This document shows positions 23,121 through 63,005 of a stretch of 64,000 nt of DNA, in pieces. The stretch lies in assembly GCA_033819885.1 (NCBI GenBank), contig JAQYUZ010000009.1, positions 372,001 to 436,000 on the forward strand, read 5' to 3'. This DNA comes from Microbotryomycetes sp. JL201. Its lineage: Eukaryota > Basidiomycota > Microbotryomycetes. Below the pieces are notes generated by a model, which was given only the letters and a program-made list of their open reading frames with translations, made no database searches and was not told where the DNA came from. The first letter of the stretch is position 1, and every line of letters starts with the position of its first letter. The translations under genes were made by a program, and so were the position numbers.

Positions 23121-24868
23121 ATGGAAGACGACCGCCCGACCGCTACCCTTGTAGACGCCGAGGAAGCGGAAGAAGAGGCCTTGCCAGACTGGAGTCAATT
23201 TGCGAAGCTCGCCAGGTGCGCAATGCAAAACGCGCGGCCGAACAGGTCTGCACTAGAAAGACGCCGCTGACGCGATTTGCTCGGGAACGATCAGCGCATC
23301 CAAAAACAAGCAGGACGCATCAATCCCGGTGCCGTTCATACCCAAGCGCGGCGAGAAGGACTTTGAGCCGATCACGCCAGACTTGTCGGCGTTGCCGGCG
23401 ACGAGCAAGCAGGCGACGCTATCTCAGCACCAGATTAACCAATTGACCGGATCTCGCAACGCATATTTCGCTGCTCTTGCAAGCGGGTCTCGGCACCATT
23501 CGTCGCGCGCACACAATTCGTTCACCTGGCGGCCCGAGCTCGATGGCGGGCGCGCTACTTGTGACTCTGACGCAGTCTACGGCGTCCACTTTGGCTCAAT
23601 TGGGCGCTACAATGTGCAGAGAAAACGTCTCGAACTGCTGCCCGAAGAAGTCTTGTACCTTGTCGAGCGAGGAGCGGTCGAGCTGTGGCAAGCAGGTGGA
23701 TGCGAAGACGGTGGACGCGTACCGATGAGCGTGCAGGAGACTTGGGACCAAGTCATGGGCACATACGACCTCAATCTGGAGCGATATCAGGTGCGCAATC
23801 TGCAATCATCAGTCGAGTATTCACTGAGCTTTGTTCTCTCCAGGTATATACATTCTTGAAACGGCTAGGTTACACAGTCATCCGAGCACGAGAAGAACAA
23901 AAGTCTTTGGAAATACCTGCCACGACAGTGACTCTCTGGGAACGGCTGAATCGGATAAGCCTTGCCGCTTTTCATTGGTTCTTCAGCTTCACAAGACGGA
24001 TAAAGCGATTGCCATCGGCGCTTTGGAATTATCTTGCTCCGTCATCTCGACTCGTTCTCACGCGAACGCTGGGAAGCACGGAGGGACAGGCTCGCAGCTT
24101 GCTCTCGGCGCGCCGGTGGTCATCTTACGGCAAGCGGATCAAGTTGGCCGCTCCTCTAGACATAGCCTGACATGATGCTTCTGCAGATTCGATCTTTTCC
24201 CACTTGCAAATTGTACCCAGCGGATGGGATCGCAAATTGCCACGAGCAATCCTCCCTCGAAACGCGTCTGCACTCACGCCGTTCGTGTCGCACGCACCGT
24301 CAAACAAAACACAGCTTGTAGAAGAGCCATATCAAGAGTTCTACCATGTCTATAAGCCAATTACCAAGTTCAAAAAAAGTGCGCCTCTGCCACCCGACTT
24401 CCGTTTGGTCGTAGTCAAGCAAGTCTGGCCTGTGGCTCCTAGTATGACGTGACATGCGCTGACCGATTCTGTCGCAGCGGATCGACCACGTCGATGCCGG
24501 ATGTTTTCGAATTCGCGTCAATGTTCGACGCAGTTCCCTTACCGATCGGCGAAGACACGCTGTTGCCGCCTCCGCGAATTATGCGACAAGGACTACCTGC
24601 CAATGCGCGAGCGGCGAGGCCTCCTAGAAGGCCAGCACAGATGCGAAACGTTGACAACTCGAACAAGTGGCTCACTAAACTCACACAACTTGTACCTTTC
24701 CTCGGTCCGAAAGATCAAACGAGAAAACCGTCGCCGTATCCTCGACTCAAGACTGGAAGGAGAGATATTCTCGTTGCTGTGGTGGACAATGGAACGATTT
24801 CAATCTTGCGCTTCAACGAGTCCGAGTTTGCCAAGTTGCCGTGGAATGGACGCGGTCGCCACGGCTGA
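23121..24868 (+). CDS. SEN54: tRNA-splicing endonuclease subunit Sen54
   Basis: Five exons: 23121-23215, 23295-23790, 23844-24129, 24187-24418 and 24478-24868, giving 499 residues. An N-terminal Sen54 domain contains the conserved block RKRLELLPEEVLYLVERG and then YQVYTFLKRLGYTVIRA. The C-terminal part carries PSGWDRKLPR, the sequence YHVYKP with KKSAPLPPDFRLVVVN, and FEFASMFDAVP, as in fungal Sen54. The protein is a structural subunit of the heterotetramer that excises tRNA introns. Introns 3 and 4 start with GC (gcaagc, gcaagt) instead of GT; only these junctions restore the conserved reading. The tRNA ligase that acts after this enzyme is also in the window (6589-9722). Confidence 0.93.
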
Positions 24869-24956
24869 TTTTCGGCAATGATGTCATTCCGGGATGCATT
24901 CTGTGCTAGTTATACCACTACAAACAACATTCCTTTTCGATTAATCAGTCCATGCC

Positions 24957-27573
24957 TTAGCATACGTGCCTCCGAGTGTCTCCCCCACTCCGGATCCTGC
25001 AATCTCTAGAGCAGAACAGCTTCTGACATCTCGGGCAAGCTGAAAAATTGAGTCCCTGCTTGCCGCACTCATGACAAATGGTTTTCATTCCTACGCGCGA
25101 GTCTCTCTCTAGAGCGGCCAGGAATGGATCGAGCGGCGGCAAGGCGCTCGCTTGAGTCTTTGGCGACATCCAAGGATCAACAACTGCGCTCGGGTTCGCA
25201 GGAGCGGGCTCGTCCTGCGAGTCGCTCGAGCTGCCCGAGTTTCCACACGAAGACCTCCTTGATTTTCGTCCCTTTCGCTTTCGAGGTTGTGGTCGAGGCG
25301 GGAGAAGATGGTCACGTTGAGGAGTCGGAGGTTGACAGACGATCTGTGGGACCGCTCTGTCCACCGAAGATTTGATGGGCCACGGTGTCGTGACGTCGAC
25401 GAAGGACCTTTGCTTCACGAGTGGTCTCCCCGAGGCCTTGTCCCGTGCGACCGACCGCAGAGACGGAGGCGAGGACATGCTCTGGACATGCGGTCGTGCC
25501 AACGAAAACGTCTGACCGAAGGGGACGCGCGTCCGCTCGGGAGATTCATCGTGATCGCTCACTTCCAGCTCCTCGAGATGGTCTGGATCCTCGCCCCAAT
25601 CAATCACGACCTGCGTGAGCGACTCGTCGTCCTTGGCGATCACCTGCCGAAGCAGACTTGTGGCGGACGTGGGCTTTGCTTGTCGCTTGAAAAGATTGTG
25701 GAATGGCACGCCAGTCTTGAGCGTTGACAAGCGCTGGCGCAGCCCTGTTGTCCAATGAGCTGGCGCATTTGTCACAGTCGACGCCGAGCTCAGAGGGTTG
25801 ATGACAATCCGTGTCGTGTGTGAATGAGCAAGCACGGTTGCTGCCCGAGTTGTCGTCTGCACTTCCCCCTCCCAGGTCGAACCGCCGACAGTCCGAGGGC
25901 GACCGAAATTTGGAGGTACCGTCGATATCGATGTACTCGAGGTGACTCGGCGCAGTAACCTTGGCGGCTGGAAGTCGGCAGTCGAAGTCACTCGACGAAG
26001 CAGCGGCGCTGGAGGAGGACCGGTGCTCGAGTCGGAAGGCGGCGAGTTATCTGGCGTTTCAGGAGGAGATGGGTAATCGGTTTGCAAGCTCTTTTGCGTG
26101 ATCAATTGGCGCAGGGGTCGAGAGAAGTTCTCGCTGGCCGGGGCAGGGCCAGGGAAGTACGAGTCGGCAGCGACTCCATAACCCAGAGACTTGATTCTAC
26201 TTGCCACTGTATCGTCCACGGTGAAGCTGTGCTGTCCCATAGCCCCCTGACTTCGTGCCATTTCGATCAGGGCATCCCCGCTGCCCCGCCGGCGGATAGC
26301 CATGTCCTCGGTAGGCTTGTCTACAGGCCTACCGGCCAGCTTGACATTCTTCCGAGACTCGTCTGATTCTGTCTGAAGTCGACGTCGTGCTTTGAAGATT
26401 ATTTCGTCGCCTTCTTTCGTGCCGATGACGCCTCCCACAGAGTCCGCCACAGCTACTGCCGCTCGCCAGTAGCGTTCGGCAGCGTCTTTGTGGTGAGGCC
26501 ACGCTTGAAGGGCCAGTATGTACAGGGCGTTTGCCCGGATAGTGAGGCTTTGCTTCACCTCGGCCTTCAGATGGGTTTGACGCGAATACGCTGGGTCGGT
26601 TAGCGCTCGTGTCGGCGGCTTTGGCCGAGGTTCAGCGCTAGCGACCCCACTGGCTAATTGTCTCGGTGGAGTTGATAGCGCAAACACCATGCTTGGAGTG
26701 AGAGGCAACGGTGGCGAATGAGGGGGAGTCGGCGCGGAGACGATGAGCGATGCGATTTCCGAGGTGGTCACAGCAGGATGGAGCAGTGTCTGACGTGCCA
26801 AATGCTCCCCTCTTTGTGCCAATGCCAATGCTGCCGAGGAGTTTCGGCTGCTTGATTGGCTATCGAGATACGACAGGAAGCCGTAGCGGTAACACGTCGT
26901 GAGCTACAAAGTTGGCGGCACGTACGGCCTTGATCAGCCCATTGTACAGCGTCAACATTCTCAAGGCAGCTCACCCCGACAATAAGATCTTGCAAGCTCT
27001 CGAGGGAAAAGTAGCGTGGGCTGGTTTCGTCGAATTCAGAGTCGGAGCTCGCTGACGACCTCCTGGAATGAGCAGGCGAGGTCGGGTTGGAAGCCAGCAA
27101 CGGTCCATCAGGGGTCAGAATGTCGTGTGCGACAGCGTATTGAGGTTTCTCGAGCTCTAGTGCGATTCCCCGGATGAATATGTCAGCTGCGTCAACCCCG
27201 CGCGCCAGGCGCCCCTCAGAGTTTGAGGCGGTTGATAGCGCGTCCGCGTCTCGGAGCAGCAGCCTGCAAAGATACGAGCGGAAGATCTGTCAGCGCATCT
27301 GTCCAATGGATAACGCCGCGAGGCAGCTTGGCGCTCAAGCAGGGTAGCACAATGTATAGGAGCCTCGAGCGCTCACCTGCCCAAAGCAGACGCCGCAACC
27401 GTGTCATTCAGCTCGACCGCCGCCCTCAGGTAGCGAATGGCAGCTGACTGCTGCTTCTTGATCAGCGCCACCTGAGCCAGCTGAAGCAGCTCGGCACGTC
27501 CTGGCGGCGACGGCGGACGGTCTTGTAACCGATGTCGCTCAAGCCCGCGCCAAGCAGGCTGTTGCCGAGCCAT
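24957..27573 (-). CDS. MYND zinc-finger protein, function unknown
   Basis: Three exons on the minus strand: 27573-27377, 27263-26975 and 26903-24957, giving 810 residues. The C-terminus is a complete MYND finger: C-x2-C, C-x2-C, C-x3-C and H-x3-C within CHECGKQG...RRHVC, with the protein ending on the last cysteine. The N-terminal third has helical, TPR/Sel1-like segments (QLAQVALIKKQQSAAIRYL, and later NALYILALQAWPHHKDA). The middle is long, Pro/Ser-rich and probably disordered. MYND fingers bind proline-rich peptides in partner proteins. A position exactly at the C-terminus is less usual than in Mub1-type proteins. No specific ortholog is recognised. Confidence 0.8.
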
Positions 27574-28613
27574 TGAGTGGGTCCTTCAGCAGAAAAGAAG
27601 ACGGTTTGTAGTAGATCACGAGAAAACTTCTAGGCTCTGCGAAAAGTCGGGCGGGCTGCCGTCCACCGGAGCGCGCAGCTTGTTCCCTGCGCAGTCGACG
27701 CTGATCACTGAAATGATTACAGCGCGCATCTGCGCGCCGTGGGCAGGCCAGTGATTTCAAAAAAGAGACGGGCGGCTATTGACACCTGATACCATACACA
27801 ATTTCACGTCTGCAAAGAAAGACGAGGACACGGGCTGAAAGATGGCCCAGAACGCGCATCCCTAGTGCTGTCTTGGGCAGACATGTCATGGTTTTCACGC
27901 TGTTCCCAACGCCGTGGGATCGGCGTCTGCCCAAGATATTCACAACGCGCTGATCAGCAAACCGGAATCTTACTACAGCATGTCAAGTCAACACTAGTCG
28001 AAACTGTGATCAGCAGTGACGTATCCGTCCCGCATACTGTGTTCATGGTACTAGCCGACGGACGCAGTCTCTGAAAAGTTTCCGGCGCTCGGCGTGAACG
28101 TACCATTCTCGTGTAGCAACATTACAAAGCTTCAATTTACTACTGCCTCGGCCGCCGTTTGATACAATGCAGCGGTCCAAAGGGGATATTTCTCTGATTC
28201 TGTTGAGTTTAGAGCGCCTTTCCCGACCTATTTGCTATTCTTGGACTGTTGCTTCACGTGTGAGTCTGAGATTCATGTGTGACCTCAGCTTGCCCCGGGC
28301 ACCGGGAACGGGAAGTTGTCATTCCACACGATATTTCCCCGCCATCTGTGTCGGATTCTTTTCAAAATCCGACCGCACTACTGCCCGGCCCGGCCCGAAA
28401 TGCGCCGCTGTAAATGAAGCCGATGCGAAGTTTCATTTGATCGCCCACTGACAGCAAGCCTTGCGAAATTGCATCACGCTCACGGACCGTCGTTCTGGAC
28501 ACCGGAGTCGAGGCCACCTGGCACTGCCGCGGGTTCAGCCCGCCCGGAAACGATGCCATCACGTCAAGGGGAAACAACAGTGGGATGACAGGTACCCGAG
28601 GTTACCGAAAATT
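27574..28613. other. Intergenic region without recognised gene
   Basis: This covers the upstream region of the MYND gene and the 3' flank of the next gene, both on the minus strand. Short open frames occur but none has family resemblance or good splice context. Confidence 0.45.
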
Positions 28614-29384
28614 TCACAGGCCTATGCTCTCTAGATGTCTTGAAAGCTGACCGTTCGAAAGTGCTCCTGGTTCAGGCCAAGAGCGACCAGTTCGCCACGC
28701 GTGAAACTGCTGCAAAACTACCCAACCTGCTTCGTCTACCTCGGATCGCCACAAAAGGTGGATCGAATGGCTTCTGCCTCGCCTTTGCCGTCTGACCTTT
28801 GGTTTCGACGCGAGGTGTTTCAACCAAGTTGGCAGTGGTCCCGCTTCAGAATTCTTGACCCGTCCAGAGGCTTCTACCTGCGGTCCCATCGACTCGAATA
28901 ATATTGTTTGCTGAGGATCATGATCGTCACAGTGCATGCGCTGGTCGGTTGGGGCACTGCCCAGCCGTGGCGTGGAATCGGATCCACTACCGGGTTTTGA
29001 AGTGGCGTCGCTGCTCGTCGAAGTTCGCGAGGCTGAGCGGGAAAGGTGCGTTGACCGAGTTGGAGTGACGCTGGTGTCCGATAGCATGGCTGTTGGGAGC
29101 TCTAGCGGGGGAGGAGCCGGCAGTTCGATCAACATGCCCGGTCGTCGTCGGATTGGTTCTTTTCCTTTGGCAGTCGTCCACTCTTCAGGGTCATGCAGCG
29201 TCTCGTCTTCGTCCATTACTGTTTCTGCCGAGTCTCGGATGAGCGCCGTATCTTGCAGTGCCGAGACCTCTGGAGTTTGCAGCCCGACAGACGAAGCTGA
29301 GCTACTTGATGATCCAGACGATGACGAAGCGCAAGAGGATGTCTCCTTGCGTCGTGGTAGCCGCCTCAGTATGCTGTTCATCAT
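28614..29384 (-). CDS. Ser-rich hypothetical protein
   Basis: A single open frame of 256 residues from ATG 29384; the same frame extends upstream but without another ATG. The N-terminal part is basic, then a long Ser-rich run (ETSSCASSSSGSSSSSASS) leads into acidic and Pro-rich segments. The last 70 residues look ordered: basic RRQRRGRSHSIHLLWRSEVD, then GWVVLQQFHAWRTGRSW and a closing helix. I do not recognise the family. The ordered C-terminus and uninterrupted frame argue for a real gene, probably lineage-specific; the start is uncertain. Confidence 0.55.
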   Translation of the reverse strand: MMNSILRRLPRRKETSSCASSSSGSSSSSASSVGLQTPEVSALQDTALIRDSAETVMDEDETLHDPEEWTTAKGKEPIRRRPGMLIELPAPPPLELPTAMLSDTSVTPTRSTHLSRSASRTSTSSDATSKPGSGSDSTPRLGSAPTDQRMHCDDHDPQQTILFESMGPQVEASGRVKNSEAGPLPTWLKHLASKPKVRRQRRGRSHSIHLLWRSEVDEAGWVVLQQFHAWRTGRSWPEPGALSNGQLSRHLESIGL

Positions 29385-30011
29385 TCTTGGTCGTTGCTGG
29401 TGTGATCTTTGAGAAGCAGAGGAATGTCGGCTCTCACTGGCCGAACGTTGAGCTCCGCACTCCAATGCTGAGCAACGGGTCGATTCAGGGCACGAGAGGG
29501 CTTGCGTTGATAAAAATGTAGAGAAAGTCGACGAGTGAATGATGGGGGGCAAGCGCAGTAGCTGTCCTTCATGAAAGAGCGAAAAAGCTCGCGTCGTTTT
29601 GATCGAAGACCCGACATGCAAGAACGTGCGCACGAGCGGGGAGGCCCAGCCGAAAGCATCGGGAACGTCTCCGAAGAGACGAGTTTTAGCACGTTGCGTT
29701 TCGAATCTCTGAAGGGGCTGTCAACGCCGTATCGACATCATGCAACAAACTGCACAGTCGCGAAGACACGTCACGTGACCCGATCGCGGTCTTGTTCTTT
29801 GCAAGGTACCAGTGACATTACAAGCATGCTAGGAAAAATCACCTTCGATGTGGTTTGTCGTTCAGCAACGACACCGAATGACTGTGACAATCCATCATAT
29901 GGCCAGGCAAGCAAGGCGTCCAGATCTAAACTGTGGTCGGCGACATGCGTCTCTTGCGCGCTCGGTCTCTGTGGAGTTGGTCGATGATCTGCTTTCGAAA
30001 GTGGATTGAGC
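29385..30011. other. Intergenic region without recognised gene
   Basis: Lies between two minus-strand genes. An 89-codon open frame overlaps the end of the next small gene in another frame and is regarded as its shadow. Confidence 0.4.
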
Positions 30012-30324
30012 TCAGTCGTGCGGCGCGGCAGTGTGCTCAAACGTCCGACGGCGCTCCCACTTCAAGTCGTCGAGGGCTTCTTTGAGCTCTGCCGTCTCCA
30101 CACGTCTGTGATCGAGCTCGGTCTGTATGCAGTGAGCTAGATAATGCTGATCTCGAGTGTTCTGGCCAAGCCTGCGCTTGACTGTTGAGCATCTTGGTCA
30201 GCCACTTCAGGGAGGCTCAAGCGCTCAATTTACCCCCGTACAACTCGACCGCAATCGTCCACGCTGCTGCCGCAGTGATGATCCTGGTAGCCAAATTGAG
30301 CTGTTTGGCAAACCTAGAGGACAT
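30012..30324 (-). CDS. Small single-pass membrane protein (86 aa), unknown
   Basis: Two exons on the minus strand: 30324-30234 and 30181-30012, separated by a 52-nt intron (gtaaat/aacag), give exactly 87 codons. Neither exon is long enough to stand out alone. The N-terminus is basic and hydrophobic (MSSRFAKQLNLATRIITAAA, then AWTIAVELYG), like a mitochondrial presequence or a single membrane anchor. The rest is strongly charged and helical (TELDHRRVETAELKEALDDL), with coiled-coil character. It sits divergently 453 bp from MCM2. Such proteins are frequent among small inner-membrane assembly factors, but I cannot assign one. The coding character of both exons and the exact phase support a real gene. 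Confidence 0.65.
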
Positions 30325-30514
30325 CTTTTTGGGTTGTGAAAAGCGGCAATGAGAAGGTTGATCGGCGGCCACAGCAGGTCAATCGCAATTGGTTTGCACT
30401 TCCATGTCAGTTTGAGTTAGATACACTCTTTTGCGAGCTGTTCCTTTCGCTGCTGTATGATGTTCCAGTCCGGCTGAAAGTGGATACGGTGAACCCCCTG
30501 TCAAAGTACTTTGA

Positions 30515-30763
30515 ACGCGTCAAGTGTCTCAGGACGCGTTCGCACATCTACACGTCCCATTCGTGTTTGTATATTGCCCAGCGCGACATCTTGAAGTCGA
30601 TTGACGCGTGAAGTGGTGTTCAGTGAGACCAAGCCCGGCTTTGGTTCGCTGCACAACGCGGTCGACTGACGCGTCGTTGCGCGCGTCTTTGCGGCCCACA
30701 GCGTGCACTCTTCACGACACGCTCACAAGCGGCGCAACATCTTTCCGAGCTCAGTCGACGCGT
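30515..30763. promoter_or_regulatory. Cluster of five ACGCGT (MCB) boxes upstream of MCM2
   Basis: ACGCGT occurs at 30515-30520, 30534-30539, 30604-30609, 30669-30674 and 30758-30763, the last 15 bp before the MCM2 start codon. In yeasts this MluI cell-cycle box is bound by MBF (Mbp1/Swi6) and drives G1/S transcription of replication genes. Elsewhere in this window the hexamer is seen roughly once per several kilobases. The remaining sequence of the 30325-30777 intergenic region shows no gene. Confidence 0.75.
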
Positions 30764-30777
30764 TATTAGAGGCAGCT

Positions 30778-34419: not shown

Positions 34420-35336
34420 CTATTTCTTGACGACGATTGGGACTGTAGATGATGCGAGAGAACCTTGTGAGCCGCTGACAATGGAAAGGTTGATCGCACG
34501 GCACTGACCAACGATGACGATGACGAGCACTGCGATACCGACGCCGATCAGAATACGCATCTTCATGTCCTTCCTGTTGGTGTGCGCAACGGGTGCGAGT
34601 CGTGAGCTTCAGTTGTCACCAGGTCCAAGTAGATGCACTTGCCACCACATTTGCTTTCGGACCCTGTTTGCGCCTTTGCGGAACCCTTGCGCCGACTGGG
34701 CCAGGTTGTCCGTCTTGTCCTGAAGCGCATCGAGACGTTCGCCACGCTCTGCGACCTTGTTGATGTTGTCGCGCATGATGCCGACAGTGTCGTCAATCTG
34801 CGCTTGGATCGCCGCCGTCCTTGATGGGCCGGAAGCGCCAGGCTGGCCGCTTGGGTTTTCTGCATCGATCAGGACGGGCCAGGAGTGAGTCATTGAAGTG
34901 TCGATCTCCGCAGTGCGTCAGGTCGTGAAGAGACCCGAGCACTGCCTCGCTCGTCAGACAAGACTCACGCGAAGCATTGCCGCTCGGGATGTACGGGTCG
35001 TAGGGTTCGCTCCTGTGAATACGCGAGCATGCCAGCGTCAGCTGATGTCGATTGGCGTTGTCAGTGTCCTGAGGAGTCTCGAGCTCTCGCTCGCCCCGAA
35101 ATGAACCAGACCGGCCGGTAGCAGCGAAGCATCGGCGGAGCACAGACGAGAGACTGATCACGTCGACTTCTGTCGCTGCGCGACACACGCGGCCGTCGAT
35201 ATGCTTCGCGCCGAGGCATCCGCCAAGCCACGCGCGGGGTCAACGGGCTGCTGGTCACTCCACTGCGGCCATGACAGAGCTCGCAGGCATGTGAAGACCA
35301 CCAAACGAGTCATGATTGCTTGTATTGCACTCACAT
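34420..35336 (-). CDS. SNC1: Synaptobrevin-type R-SNARE (Snc1/2-like)
   Basis: Four coding exons on the minus strand: 35336-35335, 35012-34969, 34859-34643 and 34573-34420, giving 138 residues. The start codon appears to be split: AT at 35336-35335, then a 322-nt intron with a perfect gtgagt donor, then G; the protein begins [10 protein letters not shown]. The SNARE motif has the zero-layer arginine in [18 protein letters not shown]. It is followed by QMWWKDMKMRI and a hydrophobic C-terminal anchor with a tail of about 30 lumenal residues. The third intron uses a GC donor (gcaagt); only it yields the conserved MWWKDMK. Snc proteins drive fusion of secretory and recycling vesicles with the plasma membrane. 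No in-frame ATG exists in an unspliced upstream frame. Confidence 0.88.
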
Positions 35337-35793: not shown

Positions 35794-38700
35794 CTACTTT
35801 GTCGACGACCACACTTTAATATGTAGCGCTGCCACAGCAAAAAGCCTCCAAAACACTACCAACGCCATGAGAATGCCCATCAACTTGTCCGTACCATCCA
35901 AAGGCAACCCAAACGTCCGCAAAACCTGTTCTCCTGTGGTGGCAATGCACGCGCCAGATTCGATCTCTTGTGCCGAGCAATCAAACTCGAGTCCACGAAA
36001 CTCGTTAATCATGCAGATTCGAGCTTGAGGTTTCATTGGAGAAATCCAGCCTATGACTTTGAGCCAGAACGGCAAGGTGACGGAGATGATGCCATTGAGC
36101 TGGGACAGCAACGTGAGGATGGCAGACGTGATCGACACTGCCAAGCCTCCGGACGAGCAGAACGAGCTGAACATGATGCCAACAGACTCGCCCACCGATC
36201 TGCGTTGAAGATCGTCAACGCCAAAGCTGCAACAAGGAAACGCGCTTGACGCTCACACTAGAGACCAAGTCGAGATCCAAAATTGTATAAAGATACGCGC
36301 CGAATGTTGCAAGTTCATGCCGTAAATGAAAATAAGCGAGAGCAGCTATACGACCAGACTCGTCAGTTTTGCAAACGTATCGTCAGTTCGGGTGCCAGTC
36401 ACTGACCAACGTCGCAATCAACGAAACGGCGGTCTCCTGAATCGTGTATGAGAGCAAGAATGTCTCGACAGACTGCCGCGCGCTCGAAGGTCGCTCATGT
36501 AAAAACAAGGCTTTCTCGGCAGGAAAGATGGCCAAGCACGACAGCATACCGACGAACGGTAATGCCGTCAATTCAATCATGATACCCACGCGCGTCTGTG
36601 CACTGGCTGGACCGCGACTGAGCCGGGCGAAAAAGATCCAAAACAGCAGTGCAAGGAATGGTGGGTTGAATAAGCGAGCGAGCAGCGCGTCTTGTTGACG
36701 CCGAAGGTTCTTGAAGGAGCGCGATAGAACGACAGGAAAGGCTCGAGTGAACGGCGCAGATGTTAGCTTGTCGGATCGTCCAGGTGACAACGCCAGCGCC
36801 AGCTTGTCATCCGTCTTTTCCGTTGGCGAGGCAACGAGCTGCGTGTGTTGCTCGTGCTGCCACCGGTCGAGGATGTCCGATACTCTCGCCGCTGTATCCG
36901 ACCGCGCCTTGTCGGAGCGGTGGTCGATCGAAATGGCGTCGAGAACAAAATCAGCTGGACTGTGGAACGCGAATTGTCAATCACTCCGGCGCCATGACCG
37001 TTCCCTCTGCCGGTCTTACTTGTAGTGCTCAGGACAATGAGCGCCTGCCTTCTCAAAGCTCGGCAATATGCCCTGCCTAGGTCCTGAGTAGGCCGTGCGG
37101 CCACCTTTGGCAAGCAACACGACGTTGTCAAACATGTCCCAAATATCCGATCGAGGCTGGTGCACGGAAACAATGATGGTTCTGCCGGAAGTCGCCAAGT
37201 CGCGCAGAGTCTGCATGACGTTGCGGGCGGTAAACGCGTCGAGACCTGATGCGCATGGTAAGCAGCGATTATCATGATCAACATGATATTTAAACTTGCC
37301 TGACAAGGGCTCATCTGCCAGCAGCACAGCTGGGTCTGAAATGAGCTGTACCGCGAGCGACAATCTCCGCTTTTCTCCTCCGCTAATGCCTTTGACCAGC
37401 TCTCCGCCGACCATGTTGTTTGCGCATGGCTTGAGTCCAAGCATTCTCAGGACTATTTCTGCGCGAGCGTCGCACTGTGCCTTTGATCGTCCGCGCAGTC
37501 GGAGTCGTGCCGCGTAACATAACGTCTCACGCACGGTCAGAGCTGGTAGGTGATGAGCATCTTCTTGCTCAATGAAGGCGACGAGCGATGCAACTTTGTC
37601 CAGCGGCATTTCATTCAGCAAAATACTCCCTTGCTGTTTGAAACGCGAAGTTTGACCTGTGCCGATTCGTCCGCCCAACAACTGCAACAAGCTTGACTTT
37701 CCCGCACCAGATGGCCCCATGATGCTCGAGACTTGACCTCGCGGAAATACGGCGTTGACGTCCGTCAGAATCTGTTTCGATCGCCGCTCTCCCTTGATCG
37801 TCCGGTAAAAGACAGTCAAGCCGAGCTGCTTTACGACGACGTCTACTTGCTTCTGAGCCGTGCTGTGCATTTCGTCACCGTCTTGATCCCCCAGCTTGAG
37901 CTTGGCAGGGTCCGATTGAGCTGCAGCGTGACGAACACCTCCAGCATGCCAAAACTGAAGCACCAACCCTGCAAGCAGAGTGCACCCAACGATGTAGCCC
38001 AGCAATCCAAGAGGGTAAACGAGCAGAGGTGTCTGCATGGGAAACCGCAGTCCAGTCAAGACGTTGTCGCCAGCACATTGGTTGCGTGCAGGTCCTGTAA
38101 TCCCCTCGCAGGCAAAAGTTCTGTTCTCGAACTGGAGTCGAAGGATCCAGTGAAATCCGTAAAAGTACGGAGACAACCATCTCGACCAAGCGATCCATCT
38201 GCGAACCGCTCAAAGCGTCAACTACGTGACCGGCCGCCTGAACTACGTGTGAAGGTATGACGTACACGGGCAACTCCGGAATGAGGTATCCCGCAGTCAG
38301 AATGAACAGTATGCTAAAGCCTGTTTGTGGCGTATGTTGTCAGTTCTTGCCGTTTCACCGAACAGGGGCGCACTCACCGTTGGCGAGCAGGGAAGCTGAC
38401 GCGAACGATCGGTTGATCGAAACGGCCAGCAGACCGTACGCGAAAGCCGCAAGGTGCTGCATGATGCATTGTGCGATGAAACTGAGCACGTTGACGGCCA
38501 AATCGTCCCGTCTGAATCCAGACATGAAGTAGAGCAGAACGGCATAGATCGTCGACGAAACAACCATGACCGGAAGGAATTGAAGCATGAACGCGAGCAC
38601 AGCGGGAGCTGTAGCGTACAGATTGTCCTCGCGCTCTCGGTCAAAGAGCTGGAGTAAAGGGCACAGCAGGTAGATGAAGACCACGATCGAGAGGTAGTAG

Positions 38701-49049: not shown

Positions 49050-49363
49050 TTGGTCAGATCGTGACTGCACAGTGAATCTCACGATTGGATGTGAATTGAC
49101 CGAGATCGGACGACACTGGCTGCTCGACGAGCAACATCTCAGTCGGACCTGTGGGTGAGCTGATAGCGCTGGCGGAGACAGTGCGGTCTGACGAGTTTGG
49201 ACAGGCCTGAGGCAGATTGATCAGTCTTCAAACACGATGATCGAGCTGGATGGCGCCTCCGCTCGGTGCGATTCCGCAAGAAGACAAAGCCGATTGTGGT
49301 GCGCCGCATTCTGATTTTACAACGACAATTCAAGCAAAAAGAGGAAAATTCTACAACAAGAAA
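49050..49363. other. Short intergenic region
   Basis: Promoter of the F-box gene plus 3' flank of the nuclease gene; nothing specific recognised. Confidence 0.4.
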
Positions 49364-53740: not shown

Positions 53741-54082
53741 GGGGCAAACCAGGTCGCCGTGCAATCCACACAAGTTCCAAGGGGCGAATGAGCGTGGTCG
53801 ACTGTTCAGCAACACACACGGGCTGAGTCGTTCGTACAGAAAAATCATGTGAGGTCGAAGCATGAGACGGTCTTGCTCTCCTCTGCGCTTTCTTAATGAG
53901 GTGCTGTCGAGAATTGAAACCCTCACTTGTCTTTGATTGAAAATTAAAAGGTGACAGAACAAGCCGCTTGACAGTGCTTGAATGAGCGCACAGTGGTATA
54001 ATATAGCTGCTGTTATACGAGATTGCCTTGCCTTGATGCCCGTCGCGAGATCCTCGCCTCAGCTGATTCCCCCGATGGAGCC
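53741..54082. promoter_or_regulatory. Upstream region of Rrg7-like gene
   Basis: Tandem spacer between two plus-strand genes. A TATA-like ggtataatata is at about 53994-54004, some 80 bp before the next start codon. Confidence 0.45.
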
Positions 54083-54817
54083 ATGGCATCCAACGTGGCC
54101 AGAGGCACGGTCTACGAGCATTTGATACAACAGCTGCTGTCTGAGCCGCCGTTGTCAGTGCAAGGATTGCTGCGCGTCGGCGGTGCAGGGGACAAGGGCG
54201 TCGACTTGCGAGGATGGTGGACGCAACGTGCATTCGACTCTACTTCTGTCGCTAGGGCACCACAGTTGTCCTCGAGTACTGTACGGCGGCCACAAGAACG
54301 CCGTCTGCCTGTCGTCGTTCAATGCAAAGCCGAGAACCGCAAGCTCGGACCTCAAATCATTCGCGAGCTGGAAGGCGTGGCAGGATACGAGACGGGTCTG
54401 AAACAAACAGTGCACAATAGGTCGATTTCATATGCGCACGCAGGTCAGAGGCACGACAGGATACCGAATCTGCCGACTCTCGCCTTTCTATGCGGTTTGT
54501 CTGGGTTCTCGAAAGAGGCGTACAATAGGGCATTGGCGTCGTCATGTCCATTATCGTTGGTGCACGTCGAATGTCCGAGTCTGAGCGACCTTGCATTGCG
54601 ACATCAACAGTCGAGAGAATCGCTCAAATGTATTCAAAAACGGGTGAATGTCATGCTGAATCAAGGGTCGGCAGGATCCGAAAAGCCAGTGCTCAAGGTG
54701 GTCAGTTGGACGATGAACCAAGCGTTCAGAGACGCTGTCGGTCCTGGATGGGAGACAGTTTTGAAACGCAGCTTGGTATCAGACAGTCGGTCAGCTGAAT
54801 TGCAATACCAAGCCTGA
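54083..54817 (+). CDS. DUF2034 / Rrg7-like endonuclease-fold protein
   Basis: One frame of 244 residues from ATG 54083, the first in-frame ATG. The start RGTVYEHLIQQLL, then VGGAGDKGVDLRGWW and VVVQCKAENRKLGPQIIRELEG form a PD-(D/E)xK nuclease-like core (D, then Q-C-K). This is the DUF2034 family, to which yeast Rrg7 belongs. Rrg7 is mitochondrial and needed for respiratory growth; its enzymatic activity is unproven. A mitochondrial presequence is not obvious with this start, so a further upstream exon is possible. Confidence 0.75.
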   Translation: MASNVARGTVYEHLIQQLLSEPPLSVQGLLRVGGAGDKGVDLRGWWTQRAFDSTSVARAPQLSSSTVRRPQERRLPVVVQCKAENRKLGPQIIRELEGVAGYETGLKQTVHNRSISYAHAGQRHDRIPNLPTLAFLCGLSGFSKEAYNRALASSCPLSLVHVECPSLSDLALRHQQSRESLKCIQKRVNVMLNQGSAGSEKPVLKVVSWTMNQAFRDAVGPGWETVLKRSLVSDSRSAELQYQA

Positions 54818-55041
54818 GTCCTCGCTTTTGTGATGCACGCTCGACTGTGGGGAAGATGATTCAAAGGACAGAGTTTCAACAAGTCGGGACACACGCAATG
54901 TAAGGTAACCTGGAAAAGGGCACGAGCAGAGGAGCAGGCTGAACAGGCTGGCAAGATATTTGAACGCGAAAGTAGCTAAATCGAGCTCAGTACAAAAGAA
55001 CCTGCGTGCCTTGACCTCGTGCCAGATTTTCAGAAGACCGA

Positions 55042-55770
55042 TCAGCAACCGCCAATCTTCAGACGGCGCGAAGGTCAGCACAGGGCACCTGTCGTTTGAT
55101 CGCCATGAGCAACTGACAGCCTGTTGAACCACGTCAATCATGATTTCCTCGTCGTCTTCGTCGATATCGAGCTGTCGACGAGGACGTGATGTTAGATATT
55201 GGGCCATTTTGATGGGATGGGGGAATTGTGCGTTCAGCTCACGTCGGCAACAGTCTGATCGCCCTGCAGCCTGTGTCCGTCTACAGGTCGAGCGACAATC
55301 AGCTAAATCGTGAGATGAAGACCTCGTCGACAGACCAAACATGAAACGGATGTCGGCCGTCGTCTTGCCCGCTCGCTCGCAGTATGCGTTCATCATCTTT
55401 TGCAGCTTGGTCGACCTGAGGCAAGAGTCGTTAGTGCTGAACCGACGTTTGCAGTCTCGGTGCGATTGGTGCGGCTTGTTTGCGTGTGCGCCTAGACGAG
55501 CCCAAGTCACGAGCGTTGTTCCTCACTTTTTGACCTTGATCAACAAGTCGGGGAAGCCGGGGCCTTGAATCTGATAGTCACAAGAGTGCAAGGTGTCATG
55601 TGTCAGCTGGAGTTGACGCGGGCGCGATCGAGGAGTGACGCGCGTGTGCGTGAGCGCGAGCTTGGTGTTGCCGATGCTCGCGGCAGAAGAGAACTGACCC
55701 GCAAGGAAACATGCTGGTTCTCAGGCTTGACCTCGGGCTGAGCCTCCTGGCGCTCCGGGCTTGCAGACAT
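55042..55770 (-). CDS. SMT3: SUMO (Smt3)
   Basis: Six small exons on the minus strand: 55770-55699, 55570-55527, 55415-55336, 55280-55243, 55171-55118 and 55056-55042, giving exactly 100 residues. The protein runs from a flexible N-terminus (MSASPERQEAQPEVKPENQH) through the ubiquitin fold (KLQKMMNAYCERAGK, DGHRLQGDQTVADLDIDEDD). It ends in AIGGC, so cleavage by a Ulp protease would remove one residue to expose GG. The last exon is 15 nt. The reading through the last intron stays open for over 100 codons and would hide the GG end; the gtcagt donor and a CTGAC branch site support splicing. The start lies only 77 bp from that of RRP46. Confidence 0.93.
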
Positions 55771-55847
55771 GGTGGACAGGTTCGACACAAAGGTTGAGAG
55801 GCAAATGGCCGCAGCGATTCGCAAACACCGCTTGTTCGGCGACTCTG
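55771..55847. promoter_or_regulatory. 77-bp bidirectional promoter, SMT3 / RRP46
   Basis: Only 77 bp separate two divergent start codons, so the promoters and 5' leaders must overlap or extend into the opposing genes. No TATA box is visible. Confidence 0.6.
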
Positions 55848-56957
55848 ATGGGCAGCAGAACACAAAGGGCACCGACAGCGCTGAGACCGCTCGAACTGAC
55901 CTTGTCAGTGCTCAACAGAGTAGACGGCTCTGCCAAATTCTCGTTCGGTCAGTCGTGCGCGACGCCTGAGCTCGGGCGCAAACGACAAGCGCTGACGAGC
56001 GGACATGCACGCCATTGCCCGCCATCACGATACCCCTCAACAGGCAATGTCAGCGTGCTTGCATCCGCCACGGGGCCCACCGAGGTCAGAATCAGGGACG
56101 AGCTCGTGCACAGCGCAACTTTTGAGGTTAATGTTCGGCCGCTGCGAGGCTTGCCGGGTGAGGCGGAGGTCTACCAATGTACCCTGTTGCTCCATTCAAG
56201 CTCAATCTCCCCCTCTTTCGCCGCTATGCAGGACCAACCTCGAAACGCGCAGAGACATTACTGAGCTCACTTCTCTCGCCGCTCATCATCCTCAACTCAT
56301 ACCCACGATCCTTGATTCAGCTGACGTTACAAACCATGTCAAGTCCGACTACCGCATTCTCGAGACCCGTCTCGACCGCCACTTCAGACCTTGAATCGGC
56401 AACGACGCTCGGACCCAAGCCAACCACAGGGACGGTTATCGGTGTAGCAGAGATGGCAGCAAGGATCAACGCAGCAATGATGGCGCTCGTGGACGCCGGG
56501 ATATCCTCGAGGGGTATGCTCGTCGCCGTAGCAGTGGCGTTTCTTCCGCGAACAAGTGGCGAGAACGACAGTGAGATGCTGTTGGACCCAACGCCGGAAG
56601 AGGAATCAGATGCATCAAGCTGTCACTTGTTTGCATTCTCTTTTGGCGTTGGCGTAGGGGGCGTCGAGGGAGAGTGTGTGGGCGTAGAGTCTGCCGGACG
56701 CTTTGACGAAGACGAGGCAAGTCGTGTGGGATCGCAGGATGCCGTGCATGATGAACTCATAGTTTTACGTGCAGCTATTTGACGCTCAGGCGGCCGCACA
56801 GAAAGCCGCACAGGCGGTACTCGCATTCATTCGCAAGAGCTTGGAGGCAAAGTACGGCGCCAACGGTGAAGGGCCAACTCCTGCTCGGGTCAAGCGTCAA
56901 GTCAAAACAGAGCCGACCGACGATCAAAAAAGTGACTCGGAAATGGACGATGCATAG
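55848..56957 (+). CDS. RRP46: Exosome subunit Rrp46 (RNase PH fold)
   Basis: Four exons: 55848-55947, 56044-56157, 56232-56716 and 56775-56957, giving 293 residues. The RNase PH fold is clear: LRPLELTLSVLNRVDGSAKF, NVSVLASATGPTEVR, SYPRSLIQLTLQT, AARINAAMMALVDAGI, then LLDPTPEEE. Rrp46 is one of six catalytically inert ring subunits of the RNA exosome. Compared with typical Rrp46 (about 220-250 residues) it has a Ser/Thr-rich insert of about 40 residues after LQT and a charged C-terminal tail. The last intron has a GC donor (gcaagt). Confidence 0.92.
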
Positions 56958-57067
56958 CCAAAGACGACAGACGAGAATAGCGAGGCCGATCTTGTTGTAA
57001 CACAACTTTATGTCAAGGCGGACCGAAAGTCAAATCTGTACAAACTCAAGGCTGTTCGTTACTCGCA

Positions 57068-57614
57068 CTAGTGCTTGCCAGTGACTTGCTCGTAGCCCTG
57101 CCTCATCTCCTCGACGCCCTTCTGTGCTGTAGCTTGACCCTCTTGGGGGTTGTTCGAGGAGCGAGAGGCTACGGATCCTTGTTCGCGTCCAGCGAGGCTG
57201 TTGCAGGCTGATCAGTAACGCATTTGCCACCACTCTTCTGCGTCAAAAGCTCACGAGTCTCCAAACGAATCCAGAGTGCTGTTGATTGTGCCGCGGATGG
57301 CCTCACCGGCGCCATGGATCTGATTGATCAGTAAGCTGTCAATGATGAATTACAGGACCGCTTCAAATCAGGGCTCACTGCGCCAAACACTCCGCTGTCC
57401 CACCAAGACCAACTACGAGTCAGTAGAGCTCGGCGAGCGGACCGGATACAATAGTAGAGCCGTACGAAATGGCTGACCCAGCTTTCTGACCAATGTCGTT
57501 CGATTGGGGGTTACCGACTGTGCCCGAGCCAGCGCCCGTCGTCGGTGCAGGGTTTGCGGCGGTACCTCCTACAGATGGTTGCACGAGAGTGTTCTGATCA
57601 GGTTTAGAGGCCAT
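57068..57614 (-). CDS. Small Gly/Ala-rich protein (119 aa), unknown
   Basis: Four exons on the minus strand: 57614-57466, 57394-57379, 57319-57255 and 57197-57068, giving exactly 120 codons; one exon has only 16 nt. The N-terminal half is Pro/Gly/Thr-rich and soft. The middle (AISGVFGAIHGAGEAIRGTI) is an amphipathic Gly/Ala-rich helix, like a glycine zipper. The end is a charged helix (AQKGVEEMRQGYEQVTGKH). Comparable short proteins are widespread in basidiomycetes and often stress-induced, but no function is known to me. The donor of intron 1 (gtacgg) is not optimal; the other junctions are good. Confidence 0.7.
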
Positions 57615-57953
57615 TCTTGTCAAAGGAAAATGTCGGCCTCGAGTCCTAAGAAGAAGTAGAGACGAGTCTATGCGCGGCATGGCCATGGCGGGGCAACGAT
57701 GACGCACTTCCGAGTGCCTTGTAACCTATGCAAAGGCATTCCACCTCTAATTTCGAAATGATTCTGTGCTAGGTGCGAGCTGGCTGCGCATTCTCTGATT
57801 TTGCTGCAACCTAAGTGCGCGTCACGTGATCCTTGCATTTGGAGTCCCCGTTTCAAGAGCCTTTGTGCGGACATGCGCCGGATTTGACCAACACGACACG
57901 CAAAGGACGTGGTCACGGACTGAAGGCGCCGCAAGGCGGCACAAGTCAGGCGA
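57615..57953. promoter_or_regulatory. Divergent intergenic region
   Basis: Promoter space for the small Gly/Ala-rich protein and the DUF6534 gene. No specific element recognised. Confidence 0.4.
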
Positions 57954-59353
57954 ATGTCAACCCTGTCGGCTACAACACCTTCATCGCGAGGTGTGCCTTC
58001 GCTGAGCTCGCTGTTGGGACCGTTCCTGGTCGAAGCACTCGTTTGCTCTCTCCTCTTGGGCATCACACTCGTACAGGCCAAGACCTACTTTGAGCGATGT
58101 GGCAACGATCCGACGATTCTCGTGCTTGCAGTGAGTATCAGGCCTCTAGCGGGGTCAAGCCACCGCGGCCGACACTGTGTTTCTACGCAACCTGAAGTTG
58201 ACGTCCCCGGTTTTCACAGGTGGCGCTTTTGTGGATCCTACACCTCTTTCATAATGTCTGCATGTCACGTGAGTGACCATCACTGGCCCTCGGCAACCGC
58301 AAAAATCTGATGAGTGCTTGGCGGCATCCTTCCAGATACAATCTGGTCGTTTGCGGTATCTCACTTCGGCGACTATGCGGCATTGACGATTCCGCCATGG
58401 AGCTTCGGAATCGGCGCGACCTTGACGGGCATCGCCAGCTTCATCGTTCAGTTCTACTACGCCCGTCAAGTCTATGTTCTCGGTCACCGAAGAGTACTCG
58501 TGCCTATGTGCATCATCATCCTGTCATTCCTTTCACTCTTGTTCTCTGTCCTCTCGACAGTCAAAGGCTATTCTTACGGCGACTTTCGACGGTTTTCAGA
58601 GTTTGAATGGGGCGTCTTCATTTGGCTGCTGAGTGCCGCAGCGGCCGACGTTCTGTTGACGTCGGCCCTCGTCTACTACCTACGACGACATCGCCAAGAG
58701 ACCGAATTTCAGGATACGAAGTCTCTACTCAACAAGGTCATCAGCAACACTGTCGAGAACAATCTCATTACGTGCTTGGTGGCGTGTATCGATGCCGTGG
58801 TGTTCGGGTTGTACCGCAGATTGGGCAACTGGCATGTGGTACTGAACGGCATGCTCGTCGGACTGTACTTTATCTCTTTCCTGACTTCGCGTGAGTCAAG
58901 CTTTGACACGCTCCTTTCGATGATTGCCAACGCGCTGATTTGTCTCTGCCGATCCCGACAGTCAATGCCAAACACAGCTTTGCAGAACGGCAGTCTAGTA
59001 TCCGAAACTTGTCGTCGCTCGCCAACGTGCCCAAATCCCAGTCTGACAACAGCGGCGACAGACACGTTGACCTGACAGAGTCGAGTCAAACGAGGCGTCC
59101 GAGCCACGGTTTGATCCAAGTCATCTCACGAGCAAGTTTCGCGTCGCTGTCGAAACCGAAAAGCGCAGATCAGGGTGGCGGCAAGGTGTCTTCGCCGCCA
59201 GCGGTGAGCCATCAGTTTGCGTTGTACAGAATAGATGACGCAGAGTGCGTATCCTTTAGCCCGTATCGTTTGTCGGACGGGAAAAAGCTGAACAGTTTGC
59301 TGTTACAGAAACAACAAGCGAGCGGAGAGCGTATTGACCGACGAGCTGATTGA
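57954..59353 (+). CDS. DUF6534 seven-helix membrane protein
   Basis: Four exons: 57954-58130, 58220-58268, 58336-58890 and 58962-59353, giving 390 residues. The opening LLGPFLVEALVCSLLLGITL and YFERCGNDP, then LHLFHNVCMSH, an amphipathic loop and QFYYARQVYVL, match the DUF6534 pattern, which is abundant in basidiomycetes. Seven hydrophobic segments are visible, the last ending in FISFLTSLNAKHSF. The C-terminal tail of about 120 residues is Ser-rich and cytosolic. No function is established; a receptor-like topology has been suggested for such families. Confidence 0.85.
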
Positions 59354-59675
59354 CCCGCAAGAGTCTTGTCCAGAGACGCGGGTCTCTGTGAGAGTAAGCT
59401 CTTTGGCTCGATTTCTCCTTTGTGACGCTGACCGGAGGTGATGATCAGACGGACGGGCAGAGTGCGTAGTTTTGGGGCACGAGCGCGCATGTATCCGTTT
59501 GTCATTGAATCTGTAGCCGTACCCCTTGCACTTGTTGTCGCTATCGTATTCTTCCGGGAGAAGAGGTCGTGCCGAATCGTGAGATTTGTGTTGCCTGCAA
59601 GTGTCCCCGCTTGGTCTCGCTCCACACACTCTCTCTCTCTTTCTGTGTGTCTTCAAGGCGGGACCTGCGTCCACG
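59354..59675. other. Short tandem intergenic region
   Basis: Between two plus-strand genes. A CT dinucleotide run lies near 59630-59645, shortly before the next start codon. Confidence 0.4.
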
Positions 59676-61026
59676 ATGCCGCTCAAACTCTTGCATCACA
59701 AGTCGTATCACGTGTACAATGCCGAGAATATCGCACGCGTGCAGCGTGACGAAGCAGAGGCCGCGCGAGCCGAAGACGAGCGCGAGCAACGCTCTATGCA
59801 GGCCGATAGCGAAGCGAGACTCGACAGAATGAGGCACAAGTTGGACAAGAGCAAAAGGAAGAGACAACGGGATCAAGACGACGACGGCGAAAAGGCTTTG
59901 GACAAGCAGTTGACGCGCGGCAGAAGTTCACGGGCGTCAGGAGATGATCAAGATGACAGTCGACAGACGCGCACGAACGGAACTGTCATTGTCAGACCAG
60001 GAGATCGATCCACGGCGAGTCGAGCGGTAGCACAGCCGCTCGAGCACATCAACTTTTGGAAAGAACTCGAGGCCGGTGGCGGCGGCGAGGCGAGTCTCGA
60101 TCAACAGGGCACCTCGAGGCCAGTGTCATCTGACATACATGGGTCTCCTTGTGCACAGGCCAGCAAACCGCTCGTTACAGAAGCACAATTGCAAAAGGCG
60201 ATCGAAAAGGACAAGCTCGAAGCCATGACACGCATGTATATCGCCAAGCGAGGCGAAGGCGAGCCGAAAGGATGGTACGCCTCGGAAGATGGTCAAACAG
60301 AAGCAGAACGCAAACGCAACGAGGAAGCAAAGTTGGAACGGGCGTGAGTTCCGAAACAGCGACAGTCCAAGGAGGCCGACAACTGACTCTTGGGGCCTGG
60401 TCAACTTTGCTAGGTACAAAGACGGCGAGCAAAAGAGAATGACTGATCCTTTGGCGCAAATGCAAGCGTATTTGGCTCGACGAGATGACATCTTGGCCGG
60501 AAGACAGCCGGCTTCCACCCGTCGTTCTCACACGTACCGAGAAAGGTACCTCGAACCGGCAACTCCGTCAGAGCGAGGTAACGACAGGAGCGTCGATCCG
60601 GTTGTTCCTTCGTTACTAGCCCCTCGAAAACGAGATCCTGCGAGACCGACGCTCTCACCACCAGGAGGAAACAAAGGTCCGAGTGGCACCTCGACGCAAG
60701 CTTCATCAAGATCAAAAGATCCGGTGACTGAATCCACAAATCGAGTTACGTCCGAACGAGCCCGCGCTCAGGCCCTTATTGCCCAACGCAAGAGGGCAGC
60801 TTTGGCGGCAACCGGTTCCGCCTCACCAAGCACGATTCGAGGTGGCAACGACACGCCTCGTAGCGATTGGGACAACATGTTTAATCGAGACGCAGTCAAA
60901 GAAGCGAGGGAAAGACGAGACTATGGCAGGACGGGACAAGCAGGACGCAACGAACAAGCGTCTTCATTCTCATGGACCGATCAAAAACGAAACAGAAACG
61001 AAAGAGTTGGCTCGAGACGGTGGTAA
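59676..61026 (+). CDS. CIR_N-domain protein, LENG1-like
   Basis: Two exons, 59676-60343 and 60414-61026, give 426 residues. The N-terminus (LLHHKSYHVYNAENIARVQR then DEAEAARAEDEREQR) is a CIR_N domain of the kind found in LENG1 and the splicing factor Cwc25. The rest is charged, coiled-coil or disordered, rich in Arg, Lys, Glu and Ser. A conserved-looking patch at the exon junction reads YKDGEQKRMTDPLAQMQ. A nuclear role around the spliceosome is likely from the domain; nothing more specific can be said. Confidence 0.8.
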
Positions 61027-61238
61027 GACTTGACGTATCTGATTCCTTGTTCTCCCAGTATTCTGTTCGTGTTGTTGTTATGCATGTGCTTTGTCAACGT
61101 CTTCGTGAATCAGAGATGAAATTCGTCAAGCGGTTCGTAAACGTTGTACAGTCGAAAGAGGGAAGCAGTGTCTACTGATGCACTCGTAGAGAAAAAGATG
61201 GTATACACGGAGTGGACAAGGTGACGCATGGCTTGTCA

Positions 61239-63005
61239 TCACATTTGCTGCAGCTGCGCAATGAGAAAAGCCTTCTCGTCCTGCGAAGCATGTCGGGCAT
61301 CAGCGAAGGAACGTTCAGGGTTCCAACAGCGCCCATGGCTTACATTGAATTGCTCGTCTTAAAGAAAACATTTGACCTAATGTCAGCTGTAGCAGCTTGA
61401 GGCGTATCTAGATGCCGACTCACCGTTACGGTCGTTGTGAAACTTTTGCAAGAATTCGATAAGCTTGACCTTGTTTCTCCGCAAGATGGCCTCGATCTGA
61501 GGCGTCTTTTTCGGATTCGCCACAAAGATCTGTAGATCGTGCGGGCGGGCTACGTAAGCATTGTGCACAATGTTAGATCAATCATGCGCTGCCCGCTTAC
61601 TTTAAAGACGTGAAACGCCTCGAATTGGATATTCTTGCTTCGATCCTTCAACAAGTTCATCATGATCTTGAGATTGTCTTCGTTGGCAATATACCGCGTC
61701 ATGACTTTAAAGTTTGCCCGGTCGAGCAGGATCTCGCCAAGCAGTTTCAAAGACTGCCGCCTCGTCACGTAGTTGCTCGATTGAACGAGCTGACCATAGG
61801 CTGTGAAGAACTAGTTAAAGAAACCCGAACAAAGGTCTCTGTCAGCTGCACTACCAGCTTGCGCTTGAGCCTGCATTGAGTTACCCGATCGTAATTCTCC
61901 TCGAGATATTCTGCTACCATGCCCTTGTGCCGTGTGAGTGTCTCCTGTAGGTCAACGTCAATTGGTAAGCATTAGTCCGACAGGCGGTCGAGGAACGAAT
62001 CAGAAACGCGTACCTTGAAATTGGCCTGAGCGTCACAGGCGATTCCAAAAGTCGTCTGCTCGATGTAGTCGATAAAGTCATACAAGCTTGGAGATTAAGC
62101 AGATCTCAGCAGGTGGCACTCGCAATCGAGGTTACAGGAGCACACACCGGTCTGACCATAGCAGGATCCTCGCCAATGGCTCGTGCCTGAGCATTTCCCT
62201 CAAGATCATGCCGGTATTGAGGGCTACCTCTGCGTTCTCGTAGCTGCCGTTTTCAATAATATCAGTACATGTCAAACACCGCATACTCAAAACATGACTC
62301 GCCCTCGCAAAGCAGCAAAGATGGTCTCTTCTCGCGAAGCGAGGTGTTCGACCGTTGGCCACCGTGTACCTATTTGTCGCCGCAGCAAGTTGTTGAAGAT
62401 TTGAGAAACGTCCTTGCGGGCCTGATTAGGATCATTGCATGTCAGCAGCTTTGGGGCACAAAGACCGTACGATCTGGCTTTGAGAATGCAACTCGCCTCA
62501 AACTCGAACCGCCAAGTGTTGCACACGAGCAGCTGCAACAAATCGTTGGCGTACACTTCCTGCGCTAGCTGGGCGATGATTTCCGGCTGTGGATCGCTTT
62601 CTGAGAATGCCTTGTGTGTCAGTTGAGCGCCAGCGTTTTGCCGCTGTGCGGCCCGATAGTGTTGACTTGCCTCCATCGCCGTACAGCAGTACCTTCATCT
62701 GAAACAGATTTTTCGATACTTCATCGCTCGCCTGTTATTGAGCCACCAAACCAAAAGACAGTGAGCCATATGGTCTCGTCAGTATGAGCTCGCCTCCCCG
62801 CCGCCATTGAGCAAAGCGTCTTTTGGGAATCAACGGCCCACGGTGTACTGACCTTTTTGCGACTCTCTGGCGAAGCTGTTCTCGATTCCAGTTTTGTGAT
62901 GGCGTCTTTGGTAGATCTAACGAGGTCTGGTGGTGATTTAAGTTTGCCGCCGCCGATCCCGCCATTTGCCGAATTTGACGACGCAGATTTTGAGAAGAAA
63001 TTCAT
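61239..63005 (-). CDS. HYM1: MO25/Cab39 homologue Hym1
   Basis: Eleven exons on the minus strand: 63005-62853, 62731-62671, 62600-62497, 62421-62303, 62243-62148, 62086-62014, 61944-61885, 61810-61601, 61529-61424, 61357-61344 and 61280-61239, giving 345 residues (human MO25 341). The family sequence is complete: [67 protein letters not shown] and [16 protein letters not shown]. Hym1 is the scaffold of the RAM/MOR kinase pathway controlling polarity and cell separation. Exon 10 has 14 nt and encodes DEQFN. Introns 2, 3 and 4 all have GC donors (gcaagt, gcgagt, gcgagt); intron 3 is stopless and in frame, so a genomic reading shows a false insert of 25 residues. Confidence 0.95.

Follow-up and report, generated by a model that had tools for sequence, protein, structure and literature searches.

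Why should introns that open with GC recur in a single stretch of DNA, when the T at the second intron position is regarded as almost invariant? The stretch is a window of 64,000 nt (positions 372001-436000 of contig C89, JAQYUZ010000009.1) from the 17.15 Mb, 92-contig assembly of Microbotryomycetes sp. JL201, and its gene content is fungus-like, with synaptobrevin, Sen54 and dense introns of about 60 nt carrying CTGAC branch sites; its G+C content is 0.543. A first-pass annotation had listed eight GC-AG introns here, a share far above 1%, and had linked them to tolerant pairing with U1 or to regulated splice sites. We confirm from sequence that the GC-AG excess is real and reaches beyond the window, with about one intron in fourteen apparently opening with GC. 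We think it probable that these are ordinary U2-type introns, and that in strong donors position +2 has become a nearly neutral pyrimidine, shifted to C by a genome-wide shortage of the dinucleotide TpA.

Genes were modelled in the window, in 20 extra 10-kb stretches (G+C 0.545) and in ten small loci, together 31 loci and 297,707 bases. Some 287,600 of these can be read, since one extra stretch is all N and another contains 100 N. The intron-aware coding model combines five-base coding statistics with a donor matrix trained on GT sites and with branch and acceptor scores, and accepts introns of 42-130 nt. Besides GT, the other 15 dinucleotides, GC among them, were admitted as donors one at a time under an identical penalty and donor matrix; the 14 that are not GC serve as controls. 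Allowing GC gained 58 introns beside 499 GT introns, compared with 8-26 (mean 19.7, s.d. 4.7) for the controls. The excess is present both in the window (12 GC calls; control mean 2.9, maximum 5) and in the 20 extra stretches (45 GC calls; control mean 15.8, maximum 21), and the background-corrected GC share is 7.4% (4.9-9.9% by bootstrap over the 31 loci). By context at +3 to +6, the GC calls fall into AAGT (28), GAGT (11), GAGC (6) and AAGC (5), against 5, 16, 27 and 13 in the same contexts for the 14 controls pooled.

All eight introns of the first-pass annotation begin with GC, end with AG and lie on a single strand each, and the gene model, working independently, returned all eight with identical ends among its 123 window introns (Table 1). 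The annotation had also held that, at all eight, the family sequence is restored by the GC site and by no other. This stands for five of the eight, which are clearly backed by alignment of the predicted proteins. In Mo25, the sole gap in the alignment to human MO25 lies far from all three GC junctions, and the Rrp46 junction is gap-free against yeast RRP46. The ABC transporter intron sits between EPLSG/LDAFTA, which aligns straight through to EPTSGLDSQTA; here the AAA_21 family scores 32.0 bits with the GC intron and 15.7 bits in the GT-only model, the ABC_tran family 86.2 and 85.8. The claim goes too far for the other three, where the evidence is weaker. The synaptobrevin difference is marginal, the GC version holding the conserved K of Snc1 and VAMP2 and having 'Synaptobrevin homolog 1' as its best solved match; for the Sen54 introns there is a reading frame at 24130 and a poorly scoring alignment stretch at 24419.

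Table 1. GC-AG introns of the window (/ marks the exon-intron boundary; Pfam scores are for the GC model versus the GT-only model).
Feature	Position	Strand	Gene	Length and evidence
GC-AG intron acg/GCAAGC	24130..24186	+	Sen54-like	57 nt, in-frame stop; reading frame only
GC-AG intron caa/GCAAGT	24419..24477	+	Sen54-like, same gene as 24130	Weak alignment to human Sen54 (stretch scores -1.5 bits)
GC-AG intron gtg/GCAAGT	34574..34642	-	Synaptobrevin (Snc1-like)	Pfam 119.2 vs 118.8 bits
GC-AG intron cag/GCAAGT	37246..37299	-	ABC transporter	54 nt; open if retained
GC-AG intron gag/GCAAGT	56717..56774	+	Rrp46 exosome	Pfam RNase_PH_C 21.5 vs 15.2 bits
GC-AG intron gag/GCAAGT	62601..62670	-	Mo25	Joint score of the three Mo25 introns: 462 bits with all removed vs 395.2 for the best GT-only model
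GC-AG intron gag/GCGAGT	62422..62496	-	Mo25	Joint Mo25 score
GC-AG intron agg/GCGAGT	62244..62302	-	Mo25	Joint Mo25 score
Extra GC-AG candidate gag/GCGAGT	60090..60158	+		69 nt; gene model, outside the first-pass list

Pfam scores of GC-allowed and GT-only models were compared in 15 pairs, the ABC transporter of the window and 14 from the 46 GC calls outside it. The 14 were hand-picked for a likely domain, plus one expected to fail; several GT-only rivals are truncated and two pairs cover two GC introns each. In such a set the best-scoring family favours GC in 13 of 15 pairs; in 11 of these the margin exceeds 12 bits or the match disappears in the GT-only model. Examples are CN_hydrolase (56.2 vs 32.0 bits), ArfGap (122.1 vs 30.6), 6PF2K (124.7 vs 97.9) and QRPTase_N (57.9 vs none).

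These controls and protein comparisons are stressed because a nematode share of 8.87% GC-AG introns collapsed to 0.79% on re-annotation, according to PMC5906903. With that precedent, and since three window calls out of 12 and one or more of the tested sample calls look false, the GC calls could be mis-modelled GT introns or retained sequence. We regard this as very improbable for the class as a whole: equally treated controls yield far fewer calls, the Mo25, Rrp46 and ABC transporter junctions align gap-free with solved proteins, and retention would break the frame or add a stop in 54 of the 58 GC introns. The introns are presumably spliced as modelled. Among the window calls outside the first-pass list, the candidate at 60090-60158 is plausible, in a gene that has no Pfam match and so no family support. 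The other three are probably wrong: 59318-59373 spans two genes, 50824-50732 has a competing GT site, and for 19862-19811 a tandem paralogue suggests that the gene at 19526-22248 holds instead a 145-nt GT intron (19955-19811), probably clipped by the model's 130-nt limit. After removal of doubtful calls the window retains 8 or 9 GC introns of about 120 (6.7-7.5%). A share well above 1% is supported by the window, by the sample and by the genome-wide pattern counts described below.

The strong consensus after the GC that had been noted in the window is borne out in the sample. Context profiles used the 51 of 58 GC calls with RAG at +3 to +5, and U1 matches were counted at the seven positions other than +1 and +2, against CAG/..AAGT. 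GC donors have on average 4.90 matches and GT donors 3.56, and the GC share climbs with the number of matches, from 0.02 at three to 0.07 at four, 0.20 at five, 0.54 at six and 2/2 at seven. When one RAGN gate is applied to both classes the climb is similar (0.04, 0.04, 0.13, 0.30, 0.70 and then 2/2). Median U1 duplex values are -5.3 for GC and -5.5 for GT donors; the GC sites, given U at +2 on paper, would reach -10.0. Intron length is much the same (median 60 for GC, 62 for GT), and so is intron G+C (0.512 vs 0.522), and local G+C was rejected as the source. The branch site CTGAC occurs in 25/51 GC and 171/499 GT introns, under a model that itself rewards such branch sites.

The composition of the genome, which the first-pass annotation had missed, accounts for the particular donors that are common. 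In the window and sample the odds of TpA are 0.46 for all sequence, 0.43 for coding sequence and 0.50 both within introns and beyond the gene models; given the last value, the shortage is not purely an effect of mRNA stability. GTA contains TpA, so GTAAGT is rare and GCAAGT common: in the sample, GCAAGT outnumbers GTAAGT as a donor by 28 to 22. Taking intron interiors as a first-order neutral guide, we can predict the base at +3 in GT_AGT donors, where A, G and C occur 22, 75 and 69 times (T, with 4, is omitted) and 22.0, 78.5 and 65.5 are expected. This match means that scarce GTAAGT and abundant GTCAGT need no selection in the GT_AGT context. Among GT_AGC donors the count of C drops to 13, beside A 30 and G 81, so +3 appears free in the strong context alone. 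C at +3 is unusual, and here GTCAGT, with 69 of 499, ranks third among the GT donors. In the U1C gene, introns one to three are all GTCAGT.

The same guide gives a neutral C share at +2 before A of 0.78 (0.76-0.80), and in the sample the C share of GYAAGT donors is 15/20 with G at -1 and 13/30 without it (H/GYAAGT). An alternative that starts from the duplex values is selection against over-strong donors, in which AG/GTAAGT would bind U1 too tightly and C at +2 would bring relief. GC and GT donors do have like U1 energies, and the GC sites would pair far more strongly with U. TpA depletion alone, however, predicts both the +3 counts and the C share of the strong class, and we give this form of selection a very low probability.

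The neutral value also yields a genome-wide expectation. Before the searches, and knowing the sample value of 15/20, we predicted a C share of about 0.78 at AG/GYAAGT and lower values elsewhere. The patterns searched include the branch site and acceptor, so that counts are of places and not of distinct donors, and they cover the sample as well (<2% of the genome). AG/GCAAGT gave 193 matches and AG/GTAAGT 48, with expected backgrounds of about 68 and 14, extrapolated from 24 and 5 copies of the motif; the totals were 1256 for GCAAGT, 710 for GTAAGT and 1730 for the control HCAAGT. After correction the C share is 0.79 (0.68-0.91) behind AG, 0.38 (0.26-0.46) in the rest and 0.44 (0.35-0.51) over all, which corresponds to 449 GCAAGT and 561 GTAAGT donors. 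A plain regular-expression count, made outside the gene model, shows the same tendency for AAGT donors, less cleanly.

In the account we favour, the GC-AG introns would be ordinary introns of the major spliceosome in which C is allowed at +2 since the remaining donor pairs well with normal U1. Recognition would work as a threshold, with A at +3, T at +6, G at -1 and A at -2 having to supply the pairing lost at +2. Within AG/G_AAGT, the strongest class, U and C at +2 would be almost interchangeable, and the base there would drift toward the output of neighbour-dependent mutation; with TpA at about half its expectation, GTA would tend toward GCA (a GC donor), GTG or GTC. GCAAGT would then be about as common as GTAAGT because a free +2 in strong donors drifts under the TpA shortage. 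The C share of the strong class would thus be set by neutrality rather than by selection for C, and the spliceosome here probably accepts C at +2 more than most do. A bolder version, in which the donor code is effectively GY-AG, with +2 a free pyrimidine in strong donors, not selected for U, with the later checks on this base (U6/Prp8 stage) necessarily relaxed as well, and with the TpA shortage alone setting the number of GC introns, is one we put forward tentatively and rather doubt.

Several observations weigh against the favoured account. U1 pairing is slightly poorer at GC than at GT sites (p 0.017), and the score of the U1 candidate described below falls under the Rfam cut-off of 69.5. 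The GC share is 0.12 in GAGT and 0.05 in GAGC contexts, far under the neutral GYG value of 0.57, so the freedom of +2 is not general, and the 13/30 of H/GYAAGT is intermediate. Raw motif copies of AG/GYAAGT in the sample are already about 0.83 C (24/29); because this is about the same ratio, the raw genome-wide share of 0.80 is by itself no evidence, and the corrected AG/ result depends on subtracting a background estimated from few (24 + 5) copies. A cruder, backward-pattern control points in the same direction with a much smaller contrast (0.81 for AG/, 0.66 elsewhere). Finally, some of the sample GC calls are false, since two of the 15 Pfam pairs disfavour GC by their best family: L013 3543-3667 (Abhydrolase_6, 59.9 vs 62.7 bits), which had been included as a likely failure, and L017 8326-8379 (GRAM, 28.5 vs 29.1), though PH there gives 25.1 vs 22.5.

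The near-half GC share of AAGT donors suggests a tolerance above the usual, and a changed splicing machinery (for instance in Prp8, Prp28 or Luc7, or through a U1 variant that escaped notice) might accept C at +2 and drive the share more than the TpA shortage does. Single loci for a putative U1C and a putative Luc7 are present. An altered U1 or U1C was considered as the cause and set aside: the sole U1 candidate, at 31.1 bits, carries a canonical ATACTTACCT at its 5' end, and the single U1C locus looks canonical, with an N-terminus that presumably agrees with the human protein. No second U1 copy fitting the unusual donor was found in a genome search, in which a very divergent copy could be missed. 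Several Luc7 genes were likewise considered, and one locus was found, matched in two pieces. Since weak contexts still avoid C, acceptance would in any case not be general, and we consider a changed machinery unlikely. The earlier suggestion of tolerant U1 pairing therefore fits where the remaining donor is strong; no altered U1 was found. U6 also looks canonical and holds ACAGAGA. The sole U6 gene found is split by a 67-nt intron of mRNA type (L010:1548-1614, within C63:52479-52661), with the sequence GTAAGATT...CCATTAG placed directly after ACAGAGAA; some fungi are known to carry introns in U6.

That the GC donors mark regulated splice sites, as had also been suggested, found no support. In human, nematode and Arabidopsis, GC donors have been tied to alternative splicing (PMC2490688), and in our sample there is a weak tendency for GC introns to share a gene (23 pairs vs 14.9), which is borderline at p 0.054. 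Yet frame-keeping, stop-free retention is not enriched, at 4/51 GC and 40/533 GT introns (the latter count includes the later loci L031-L034, hence 533 and not 499), position along the gene shows no difference between the classes (p 0.55), and many GC introns lie in housekeeping genes. Selection maintaining GC donors for regulated or slow splicing accordingly seems to us a slim prospect. We also looked for introner-like spread; among 550 introns there were five short matches of 15-25 bases and no groups of alike introns.

Compared with the usual GC-AG introns of the U2 class, those described here are alike in GC donor, AG acceptor, stronger remaining consensus, branch site and length; the usual class makes up about 1%, whereas here the share is about 7% over all introns and near one half among AAGT-type donors. 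Fungi average 98.7% GT-AG (PMC7072748). Larger shares are given for algae in PMC3033335 (Aureococcus anophagefferens 39.6%, Micromonas pusilla 22.2%, Chlorella sp. 7.7%) and are ascribed there to high G+C, 69.5% in Aureococcus and 65.9% in Micromonas. The present genome shares with these algae a GC-AG fraction far above 1% but has 54% G+C against their 66-70%, and its driver is likely the TpA shortage, unlike the high G+C of the algae. Globodera rostochiensis, with about 3.5% non-canonical sites having RNA support (PMC4901422), likewise shows an elevated share outside the G+C-rich genomes, but it is a nematode and its share is lower. Lineage-specific donors other than GT also occur in Eurytemora affinis and Oikopleura dioica, which use GA/GG donors and for which a variant U1 isoform was suggested (PMC5714493 and PMC7072748); a variant U1 was not found here in the search described above. 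For regulated GC introns of the let-2 type an enrichment of frame-keeping retention would be expected, which the counts above do not show. Closest to our reading is the neutral fixation of GC in strong donor contexts proposed for mammals in PMC2490688. That proposal concerns <1% of sites; in the present genome the strongest class has a corrected C share equal to the neutral value. No fungus with a comparable share, and no link to TpA, appeared among the matches listed in our literature search, which left the supplementary species tables of PMC7072748 and PMC3033335 outside. What seems to be new is a share of this size at 54% G+C, together with its explanation by TpA and the agreement of the strong class with the neutral value.

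If this reading is right, the constraint on the T at +2 would seem to vanish once the remaining site is strong, the leftover choice following mutation. Context strength multiplied by neighbour-dependent mutation may then offer a numerical account of differences in GC-AG share between genomes. In practice, about 7% of the introns here would be lost or wrongly modelled by gene finders that bar GC donors or score them down; in the Mo25 model this concerns three of ten.

Some minor observations were made along the way. The window holds a second R-SNARE-like gene (12075-13040, + strand) with a MWWKN motif, an N-terminus that looks longin-like by eye and six GT introns. The genes at 13634-16273 and 19526-22248 (- strand), the second of which was discussed above for its probable 145-nt intron, are a tandem pair of closely similar membrane transporter genes that we take to be OPT-like. 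On contig C21, two pairs of matches, 14551-14913 (-) with 203940-204302 (+) and 19047-19111 (+) with 199742-199806 (-), mirror each other about one centre, a layout that suggests either a large inverted duplication or a palindrome in the assembly.

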